From: Oligoflexia bacterium
Lineage (GTDB): Bacteria > Bdellovibrionota > UBA1018 > CAIMNF01
Assembly (NCBI GenBank): GCA_903845155.1
Contig: CAIMWN010000248.1
Location: 1 to 34,100 of the forward strand
DNA: 34,100 nt
Reading direction: 5' to 3'
This document shows, piece after piece, positions 53 to 2,576 of this stretch. The notes beneath the pieces are model-generated. The model made no database searches. It was given only the letters and a program-made list of their open reading frames with translations, and was not told the DNA's origin. Both the position numbers and the translations under genes were made by a program. Numbering within the stretch: position 1 is the stretch's first letter; each line of letters opens with the position of its first letter.

Positions 53-86
53 TAGTGTATTAAAAACATTAAAAAAGGAGTCTGAA

Positions 87-1157
87 ATGAAAGTATCGAA
101 TGCATCAATCAAGAATAAGCAAATTTGGGTAATGGGCGCAATCGCCCTCATTACCTCGCTGGTTCCTATGAACAGCCAAGCCCAAGAAGGTTCCGGCAAC
201 TCAGGGGGCGGAAGAGCAAAAGAAGGGGATCTTCGCCACTACATCGGAAAGATCGATGAGTACTTACTCACTGGTGAAGGCAAAAAAACCTTTCCTGAAA
301 TCGTAGAATACGACCGATTGCACCCCACAGAAAGTTTTCACGCCCTGATTCAAAGAGTCCGCCCAATAGTCAACATTGGTCCAGTAGAGGATGCTTTTCA
401 AGATGACCGGGATTGTGTAAGCCATTTTGAAGACCTGAATAATCGTTATTTCGTTTGTAATACAAACGCACTTCCAGAAGTTAAACTTGCGAACGACCCA
501 AGCTATCTCCGAATTGTGTTCCACGAGCTCTTAGTACAAACCTTATTAGAATTGCCAATCAATAAGAAGGTTCCCTCAGAATATACAATCTCTTGGAGAA
601 TCACCGAAAACCTTCATCTTGAAACTTATCAGGAATGGGTGCCAGGTAAGAAAAAAGTGGTACACAATGAGTTCGTCACGTTGGTAAGAAAATTATTTAA
701 AGACCAAAGCTCTACTTACGATTTTCAAAAAATTAATTCTCTCGCATGGGATACCAAAGGTTGTACAGGAGTAATGATTGGTGGAACCGGAATGACGAGC
801 CTAGGAAGTCCAAATGAAACTAGAATTACTGGTGAAATCAATTGGTATGGATTTCCTGAGCATATGGGCCTCGAGTTTAAACATTTAATAACGAACTCAT
901 ACCAGTTTTTAGATTACCCAAATTTACCCTACAGCAACGACGGTCCACAGCTTTTCACATTGATTAAGGCGAATACAATGCAAGCCAATTACGGCCCTTC
1001 CCGATTAACGGTAAAGCTAGTAGATAACACCACCATAGTCGTTGAGGCTGCGATTAACCAAGATGGACCTTTTTATAATCAATTCGCGCCCGTTACCGGC
1101 CCAAGCGTTACCGACTCAAAGTACATTCCATTCGTCTATTTTATCTGTAAACAGTAA
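87..1157 (+). CDS. Secreted protein of unknown function
   Basis: I do not recognise this 356-residue protein. Residues 1-32 form a signal peptide: a basic, polar start, a hydrophobic core at about 13-27, and a likely cut after Ser-Gln-Ala at residue 32. A Gly/Ser-rich stretch follows, then a mixed globular domain with Cys in pairs (the CVSHFED and YFVC segments, a GCTG segment, and a Cys three residues from the C-terminus), which suggests periplasmic disulfides. No catalytic motif is evident. The start is set by AAAAAAGGAG at 71-80, six bases before the ATG. The gene stands alone, with its own terminator just downstream. The same initiation region, with 23 of 25 bases identical, recurs in the inverted repeat at 1499-1523. 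It is probably a lineage-specific periplasmic or secreted protein; being coding is well supported, function is not. Confidence 0.85.
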   Translation: MKVSNASIKNKQIWVMGAIALITSLVPMNSQAQEGSGNSGGGRAKEGDLRHYIGKIDEYLLTGEGKKTFPEIVEYDRLHPTESFHALIQRVRPIVNIGPVEDAFQDDRDCVSHFEDLNNRYFVCNTNALPEVKLANDPSYLRIVFHELLVQTLLELPINKKVPSEYTISWRITENLHLETYQEWVPGKKKVVHNEFVTLVRKLFKDQSSTYDFQKINSLAWDTKGCTGVMIGGTGMTSLGSPNETRITGEINWYGFPEHMGLEFKHLITNSYQFLDYPNLPYSNDGPQLFTLIKANTMQANYGPSRLTVKLVDNTTIVVEAAINQDGPFYNQFAPVTGPSVTDSKYIPFVYFICKQ

Positions 1158-1177
1158 TACAACTCAATTATTTTTCG

Positions 1178-1211
1178 ATTGCCATCGTTAACCTTTAACG
1201 ATGGCAATTTT
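1178..1211 (+). terminator. Rho-independent terminator after the first gene
   Basis: A 14-bp perfect stem (1178-1191 with 1195-1208, core TTGCCATCGTTAA) closes a three-base loop and is followed by TTT. It starts 20 bases after the stop codon of the secreted protein gene. Base pairing was checked by eye. Confidence 0.8.
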
Positions 1212-1346: not shown

Positions 1347-1564
1347 GAAAATAAAATCCTGTGCCTGCGCCAAAATAGTATGGAGTTGTTTTTACATTTG
1401 AGTCTCCTTTTTTAAATTCGTGAAGTCACCCCATATCGAGCGCGGCCAGGATGGCCGGCAGCGAGAGGACAGGACGTCCGAGGGGCGACTTCATGAATTT
1501 AAAAAAGGAGACTCAAATGAAAGATCTATATATTACACGGGCGCAAGCACAGGACTTTATTTTC
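1347..1564. repeat. Composite inverted repeat carrying outward-facing RBS-ATG in both arms
   Basis: Inner arms at 1395-1432 and 1482-1519 are inverted copies with 36 of 38 positions matching. Outer arms at 1347-1371 and 1540-1564 match at 23 of 25 positions; the spacers between inner and outer arms (23 and 20 bases) are diverged. The 49-base centre contains two small hairpins: CGGCCA-GGA-TGGCCG at 1443-1457, and GGAC at 1467-1470 with GTCC at 1476-1479. Each inner arm ends in AAAAAAGGAGACTCAAATG reading outwards, a strong Shine-Dalgarno plus ATG. The right outer arm includes the last codons and stop of the yejE-like gene. There is no transposase and no target duplication that I can see. It could be a repeated non-autonomous element, an inverted duplication of a gene start, or a terminator structure for the minus-strand operon. 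Confidence 0.8.
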
Positions 1565-1606
1565 GTGGATCGAAGGATTCACGCAGTGACTCCCCTATTA
1601 AATTAA
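1517..1606 (+). CDS. Possible 29-residue ORF starting in the inverted repeat
   Basis: An ATG at 1517, preceded by AAAAAAGGAG at 1501-1510, opens 29 codons and stops with TAA at 1604-1606. It is antisense to the end of the yejE-like gene from 1557 on. The mirrored ATG of the left arm is followed directly by TAA, yet further out both arms encode AQAQDFIF in the same relative frame. It may be a relic of a duplicated gene start and not an expressed peptide. I hold it only as a possibility. Confidence 0.15.
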   Translation: MKDLYITRAQAQDFIFVDRRIHAVTPLLN

Positions 1607-2576
1607 TCGAAATCAACATCCACGACAACGCCACCGTCGGAGTAATTAAAAGCCAAGCTGCATTTTGAATGTAGGTTCGACCTTGCTGCAGAAGCTCACC
1701 TAAACTGGGCGTGGGCGGAGAAAGTCCAAAACCCAAATAATCGAGCACCGCAAGTGTAGCAATCCCCGCAGAAACAGTAAACGGAGTTAAGGTTAAAATG
1801 GGCGTCACCGCATTAGGTAAAATATGGACGAAAATTATTCTCAGATCTTTTGCGCCGGCCGCGCGCGCAGCCTCGCAGTACTCGCGTTTTCTTAAACTTA
1901 AAAACTGTGCTCGCAATTGAGAAGAGACGCTTGCCCAAGAAAAAAGCACGACCACGAAAAGCGTAAGCCAGAAAGAATCTGACTTCATGAGACCGTTCAC
2001 TAAAATCACGACCGATAAGAACGGCAGTATTTCGATGAGTTCCTTCAAGCGCTCCGTAATAAAATCGGTAGTGCCTGCAAAATAGCCTTGTATTGATCCG
2101 ATAAAGATCCCGATCAAGAAACTCAGAAGCCAAAACAATAGCCCATACGAAAGCGAAACACGTGTTCCGTAAATGAGTCGGGCAGTAACATCACGGCCTA
2201 AAGAATCTGTACCAAGCCAATGCGTAGACGATGGTGCAGTCATGATTTCGGTAGTTTGTTCATAGGGGTCCCAGGCATTGAGCGGAAACCATGCCCAGGT
2301 TTCAAGATTTGTTTCTTGATCTTTTTTAACGAGAGCGCGGTAATCCACCACAAATGAATCAGTCACTCCAAATTTACTAGCCGAGTAATGCAAAAAGGCC
2401 GGCGCAAACCAATTCCCATCGCGTTTCATTAAAATGGGTTTGCTGTTTGACCAAAACTCAGCCGTCATGGAAATGATAAAAACAAACAGAAATCCACAAA
2501 GCCCCACCCAGGCGCGCTTTTGTCTGAAAAATGTATTCCAACGTCTCAACGTGAGTGGGCTAAATCTGAAAGCCAT
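1557..2576 (-). CDS. yejE: Peptide ABC transporter permease, YejE-like (OppC family)
   Basis: Inner-membrane permease subunit of a peptide importer, 339 residues. An N-terminal membrane segment at about 23-40 is followed by a periplasmic stretch with the KPILMKRDGNWF segment typical of YejE, where E. coli has a very similar KPLLVRYDGSW. The HWLGTDSLGRDVTARLIYGTR block and the EAA loop (EAARAAGAKDLRIIFVHILPN), which contacts the ATPase, are both clear; it ends in the family's usual DPRK. Its start codon shares one base with the yejB stop (TAATG), so the two are translationally coupled. The stop codon lies inside the outer arm of the inverted repeat. No yejF-type ATPase follows it; the gene is the last of its operon. 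Confidence 0.92.
   Translation of the reverse strand: MAFRFSPLTLRRWNTFFRQKRAWVGLCGFLFVFIISMTAEFWSNSKPILMKRDGNWFAPAFLHYSASKFGVTDSFVVDYRALVKKDQETNLETWAWFPLNAWDPYEQTTEIMTAPSSTHWLGTDSLGRDVTARLIYGTRVSLSYGLLFWLLSFLIGIFIGSIQGYFAGTTDFITERLKELIEILPFLSVVILVNGLMKSDSFWLTLFVVVLFSWASVSSQLRAQFLSLRKREYCEAARAAGAKDLRIIFVHILPNAVTPILTLTPFTVSAGIATLAVLDYLGFGLSPPTPSLGELLQQGRTYIQNAAWLLITPTVALSWMLISINLIGESLRESFDPRK

Follow-up and report, generated by a model that had tools for sequence, protein, structure and literature searches.

Long palindromic elements with a conserved branched tip in Bdellovibrio-related bacteria

Results

A nested inverted repeat lies behind yejE

The stretch of DNA analysed here, 34.1 kb from an Oligoflexia bacterium and referred to as the window, carries a convergent gap between a gene without Pfam family and a yejE-like ABC permease gene. 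The right part of this gap is occupied by a long inverted repeat, whose right arm overlaps the stop codon of yejE (Table 1). A first-pass annotation of the sequence had described this position as well as two nested inverted pairs around two central mini-hairpins. All of this is borne out, with counts exactly as claimed: 36 of 38 positions pair in the inner arms and 23 of 25 in the outer arms. No other inverted pair with at least 30 of 38 positions matched and a spacer of at most 150 was found elsewhere in the window. Folding of 1347-1564 yields about -121 to -123 kcal/mol on the two strands (z -14.9 and -17.4) and none of 200 shuffles was as stable. Beyond the ends of the repeat, pairing goes on weakly. 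On the plus strand, the left arm at 1340-1354 reads GAC CCC AGA AAA TAA, coding D-P-R-K-stop, and mirrors the final codons of yejE (GAT CCA CGA AAA TAA, 1557-1571) with 12 of 15 bases identical.

Table 1 Features of the inverted repeat and its surroundings (window coordinates).
Feature	Position	Strand	Evidence or remark
Left convergent gene	87..1157	+	without Pfam family
Intrinsic-terminator-like hairpin of left gene	1177..1209	+	ordinary, apart from the element
Outer arm, left	1347..1371	+	23/25 vs 1540-1564
Internal segment, left, unpaired or poorly paired	1372..1394	.	fold; by eye, copies of other genomes have a similar poorly matched stretch mid-arm
Inner arm, left	1395..1432	+	36/38 vs 1482-1519
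Shine-Dalgarno/ATG-like words in left inner arm, same as in right	1395..1410	-	ATG, then TAA directly
Conserved tip, 54-nt core defining the family	1432..1485	+	covariance model R1 71.8 bits, E 3.9e-18 (window copy in training set); 74-member alignment A3
Tip mini-hairpin P2, GGCC AGGAT GGCC	1444..1456	+	family-wide covariation
Tip mini-hairpin P3, GGAC AGGAC GTCC	1467..1479	+	family-wide covariation
Inner arm, right	1482..1519	-	36/38 vs 1395-1432
Shine-Dalgarno/ATG-like AAAGGAGACTCAAATG in right inner arm	1504..1519	+	29-codon frame; judged incidental
Internal segment, right, unpaired or poorly paired	1520..1539	.	fold
Outer arm, right	1540..1564	-	final 8 bases = yejE end and stop codon
yejE-like ABC permease (BPD_transp_1)	1557..2576	-	3′ end abuts and enters right arm

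Could this be an ordinary terminator, a chance palindrome or an artefact of assembly? The convergent gap and the draft state of the metagenome assembly (337 contigs) would suit such an explanation, but the fold is far more stable than the shuffles and the left gene already has an ordinary terminator of its own, a perfect 14-bp hairpin ATTGCCATCGTTAA/TTAACGATGGCAAT followed by TTTTCCTTT. Nor do the two arms match perfectly, as an assembly fold-back would; they differ at several positions.

The inner arms had further been read as a head-to-head duplication of translation starts. The letters are present in both arms, where AAAGGAG..ATG points outward at 1504-1519 (+) and 1410-1395 (-), but functional support is absent: on the minus strand ATG is followed directly by TAA, and the plus-strand frame encodes 29 amino acids running into the antisense of yejE. 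Because one start codon meets a stop immediately, we rejected these words as functional starts and regard the duplication as incidental; they may be there by chance or may have been captured. The Shine-Dalgarno/ATG word occurs at few further places in the genome. The inner arms share an unusual start region, AAAAAAGGAGNCTNAAATGAAA, with two gene starts, at window 69-93 (92% over 25 nt) and at G000:C11:56913-56933 in the same genome (21/21).

The tip recurs while the arms are new at each site

BLAST with the entire stretch 1347-1564 against its own genome, 40 relatives, plasmids and phages returned no further copy, and a family repeated over the whole element was rejected on this basis. With its 54-nt centre (1432-1485), weak matches appeared both in the own genome and in relatives, the first five of them each within a different long inverted repeat. 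The earlier suggestion of a repeated element family therefore holds for the centre and the architecture but not for the full stretch, as the arms are new at each site.

We built a covariance model of the centre (R1) from the window copy and these first five matches, and a second model from 74 members (alignment A3). Among the limited number of candidates scored per genome, R1 detected at least 9 copies in the own genome (G000), at least 35 in G002, 37 in G039, 19 in G011 and 17 in G008, and fewer elsewhere. With the 74-member model, the corresponding minima were 9 in the own genome, 45 in the congener G002, 25 in G011 and 21 in G008; by this model the tip is present in at least 19 of 39 relatives, a set outside which G039 lies. 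A scan of 369 genomes of the phylum, with few candidates scored in each, returned matches at E <= 1e-5 in at least 15, all from one order, to which the family is nearly confined among the candidates scored. In named GTDB contigs, the exact tip pattern was found in assemblies of Bdellovibrionales and Oligoflexia and also in one of Hydrogenedentota and one of Spirochaetes. The last two were not counted as members, having one mini-hairpin in common and no long arms. At these loci (L115, L117, L121 and L125), CGAGCGAG-NNCAGGATGNN-CGAAAGCGAG follows an ACGGAT/ATGAAT hairpin, which comes near one half of the tip, and J094 holds several copies of this motif. Viral contigs had no match to one tip pattern. 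None of the copies matched an Rfam family other than at chance level or in microRNA-shaped hits.

As the models cover the tip alone and not the arms, the flanks of held-out matches could be scored separately. All 20 of 20 tip matches outside the training alignment, down to E 5e-4, have complementary flanks scoring at least 15, compared with 1.7% of places drawn at random from the retrieved DNA, a null that is, if anything, too high because some of these places lie near real copies. The held-out test refutes a terminator, chance or artefact origin as a whole, the same tip is found across many independent assemblies, and we regard this explanation as highly improbable. The window copy may still act additionally as a terminator.

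Branched tip and copy-specific arms

In the tip consensus an almost invariant GC/GC pair encloses an NNCA-GGA-TGNN hairpin with GAG/GAAA flanks and a second NNCA-GGA-TGNN hairpin, together with GNGGAG. Both short hairpins covary strongly: 96.4% of cells are paired, double changes number 111 against 33 in shuffles, and the covariation of 0.51 falls to 0.02-0.09 when the hairpins are slid. Two hairpins with GGA-type loops are likewise found in TwoAYGGAY RNA (RF01731) and among CsrA-binding hairpins. The window, however, reaches only 29.8 bits with RF01731, against a gathering cut-off of 43, and the other members tested did not match. Unlike in CsrA-sequestering RNA, GGA is not found in every tip loop, CGA, TGA and AGA occurring in either hairpin; a CsrA-type reading was downgraded because of this variation.

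Nearly all of the 71 copies in the 60 regions retrieved form a long hairpin of about 20-140 bp per arm, with the tip as its cap. Short or undetectable arms were seen in a few tip matches of the first set (L063, L069 and L109). Arms measure about 72 bp in the three congeners G002, G008 and G011 and up to about 140 bp in G039. The order of the window copy, from inner stem through a poorly paired segment to outer stem, resembles the mid-arm break of copies in other genomes. Over the first 40 nt, the arms in G000 are 89% identical within a copy and 59-63% between copies (shuffled 68%); the respective values in G039 are 0.93 and 0.73 (shuffled 0.66). The G039 copies L072-L091 have asymmetric conserved blocks in their arms, GGCGAGGACGTCTTTGTCAAAGACC on one side and GGCTGCGGAATGTCTTTTTACAAAGACC on the other. 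A single copy, L114 (G020:C13:76107), has almost perfect arms of ~110 bp and folds at -172.6 kcal/mol.

Copies are located at 3′ ends

After the reading frames had been cleaned, the flanking genes of 37 copies were convergent, those of 27 tandem and those of 3 divergent. Copies also lie next to the 3′ ends of RNase P RNA and several tRNAs. The window copy has an A-rich/T-rich outermost stem (GAAAATAAA ... TTTATTTTC), and the element ends with GCACAGGATTTTATTTTC, a stem followed by a U-rich run on the minus strand, that of yejE. After the stem, the minus strand reads ATTTTATTTTC, where a simple terminator scan makes no call. By its sequence, this outer stem would suit a putative terminator of yejE, and the element would also supply the gene with a strong 3′-end hairpin whose outer ends are rich in A and in T.

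The first-pass annotation had also raised the possibility of an RNA structure. The copies might be functional RNAs, that is, transcribed 3′-end structures (bidirectional terminators or protective hairpins) with a GGA-loop tip that binds a protein, all under selection at the RNA level. The strong 3′-end bias, the stable-RNA neighbours, the covarying tip and the U-rich end of the window copy are consistent with this explanation. It is at odds with the outer ends across the family, where a T-tract is not seen and was rejected as a family trait, with the varying loops and with the lack of a match in Rfam.

In places, the far arm carries the 3′ end of the host gene in inverted form, as at yejE (12 of 15) and at a tRNA-Ser (L066, 16 of 18). 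Across all copies this signal is weak, with a mean identity of 0.54 compared with 0.50 (p 0.01). In the right flank of L066, in L016 and in L018, tRNA genes have CAGGATGGCC-type repeats next to or within them; the arms of L018 and L066 repeat the tRNA 3′ end in inverted form.

Whole hairpins are present or absent in near relatives

Flank searches in three near relatives revealed two empty sites (L062 compared with G008 and L097 compared with G002) and one replaced site (L096 compared with G008), at which flanks of ~95-98% identity enclose 46 nt of other sequence instead of the element. The breaks between filled and empty sites read ACTGGC...GCCAGT; the ends are visible in these pairs and there is no consistent target duplication. 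Arms are missing along with the tip at empty sites, so the unit gained or lost is the whole hairpin. Insertion of a core into the loop of an existing host terminator was rejected at the three sites for the same reason. Behind yejE, none of 10 congeners has a hairpin; this is not a clean empty site because relatives lack synteny on the far side of the locus. L094 (G011) shares its right arm and right-hand flank with L060 (G002), whereas its left flank is similar to that of L069 (G002), as if two copies had recombined and rearranged the chromosome.

The outer ends of copies in G002, G008 and G011 match those of an IS1-like insertion sequence of ~1 kb, and in G008 the 20-nt ends ACTGGC.TCG.TC..TGTTG also flank insertion sequences of 1.0 kb. 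The transposase of the insertion sequence, ~310 amino acids long, is only a distant IS1 relative (NCBIfam IS1 equivalog, 38 bits where the cut-off is 100; E 1.5e-9). Since element ends equal insertion sequence ends, movement by this transposase is probable in some congeners. It was rejected as the mover of the window copy, as the window's genome has no match to it and the ends of the window copy differ from ACTGGC. The view that the repeat has the form of neither an ordinary terminator nor a known insertion sequence holds. Y1_Tnp (PF01797), the transposase type of the RAYT genes associated with REP and REPIN sequences, has three matches in the genome, none on the contigs with the nine copies. 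In G008, insertion sequences of ~1.0 kb (L187, L188 and L189) lie within about 12 bp behind stop codons and the stop codon of their transposase is completed by target TA.

These ends, shared over 20 bp with 1.0 kb insertion sequences in G008 and G011, the length of ~200 bp and the discrete insertions would fit plain MITEs, internally deleted IS1-like insertion sequences in which the tip is a mere passenger. However, the insertion sequence copies examined lack the tip and the arms inside the end repeat are not insertion sequence. The tip is moreover common to elements with unrelated ends and to genomes without such a transposase (G000, G034 and G015) and is therefore not an internal remnant of one insertion sequence, so we consider plain MITEs quite unlikely.

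Arm copying may alternate with decay

Among arm mismatches on the tip-plus strand, G.U exceeds A.C (233 vs 161, p 3e-4) while control mismatch types are near balance. Such an excess would favour the functional RNA explanation, but it is unstable to alignment stringency, with p 0.14 in one setting and 0.01 in another. Arm changes at four orthologous filled sites are mostly single and uncompensated; compensated double changes number 9 at one pair of loci and 0-1 at the others. This is the pattern expected of decay, which argues against selection on the RNA and also indicates that arm copying is not continuous. We hold the functional RNA explanation to be unlikely.

Template switching is reported to homogenise the arms of inverted repeats and to invert their spacer (PMC8794818, PMC8604942). 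The tip has opposite orientations in L064 and L096, which lie next to the same gene. Perfect arms of unrelated sequence together with mostly uncompensated changes look like occasional copying of whole arms followed by decay. Arm covariation would likewise result from arm copying at the DNA level and not from RNA selection alone.

Discussion

The inverted repeat behind yejE is best explained, with a probability of roughly 0.6, as a member of a dispersed element family of one order of Bdellovibrio-related bacteria, whose long palindromes have a conserved branched tip and copy-specific arms. The family is widespread, its tip covaries, its arms are complementary and specific to each copy, it is located at 3′ ends, and its copies are present in some genomes and absent from their near relatives. 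These long DNA/RNA hairpins are so far undescribed; in the literature on Bdellovibrio relatives we found no description of such elements.

Like REP, BIME and REPIN sequences (GTAG and CGTC super-families; PMC3733652, PMC3116915), they are palindromic, extragenic, present in many copies, enriched behind genes and apparently non-autonomous. REP stems, however, span 5-13 bp, carry a GTAG or CGTC tag and belong to a palindrome that is itself conserved (PMC3733652), whereas here arms of about 20-140 bp (36-41 bp in the window copy) are copy-specific and the tip is conserved. No GTAG or CGTC tag was seen at the stem end in aligned copies. With bacterial MITEs and interspersed palindromes such as ERIC/RU-1, RU-2, BOX and RUP (PMC2759123, PMC3049150), they have in common a length of 100-400 bp, inverted ends, an intergenic position and presence or absence between relatives, and the copies in G002, G008 and G011 are MITE-like in that their ends match a resident insertion sequence. 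Those elements are conserved along their sequence, while the tip alone is common to all copies and genomes of this family. The IS1 family (a single long transposase frame; NCBIfam transpos_IS1, a weak match) resembles copies of three congeners at the outer ends but encodes a transposase and lacks the tip. Hairpins generated by template switching (PMC8794818, PMC8604942) are similar in their perfect arms of arbitrary sequence, arm homogenisation and spacer inversion; they arise anywhere and have no loop in common, whereas the spacer of this family is a conserved structured motif.

The best reading of the family is that of non-autonomous palindromic elements defined by their conserved branched tip. 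Such elements would be gained and lost as units, mostly in spacers right after stop codons, tRNAs and RNase P RNA, and in some congeners they were probably moved by the IS1-like transposase. The arms probably stay or become complementary by arm-to-arm copying during replication or transposition, as in template switching, and the tip may be conserved because something recognises the folded nucleic acid. A bolder proposal, which we consider doubtful, is a new class of genetic element defined by the folded tip alone. Here, a three-way-junction module of ~54 nt would create or capture a new perfect hairpin of arbitrary sequence where it lands and spread via a folded single-strand or template-switch route. 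Capture is suggested by arms that sometimes seem to include an inverted host gene or tRNA 3′ end (yejE, tRNA-Ser).

For the preferred reading of a dispersed, tip-defined family, the consequence is first one of detection. Interspersed palindromes of bacteria are normally recognised by their repeated sequence. Here the stems vary from copy to copy and only the branched tip repeats, so ordinary repeat searches miss the family, as with the whole-element BLAST that found zero copies. With dozens of long hairpins in a genome and sites that are filled in one near relative and empty in another, the family forms a natural test set that allows a direct test of how long perfect stems originate and are kept up, whether by RNA selection, template switching or transposition.
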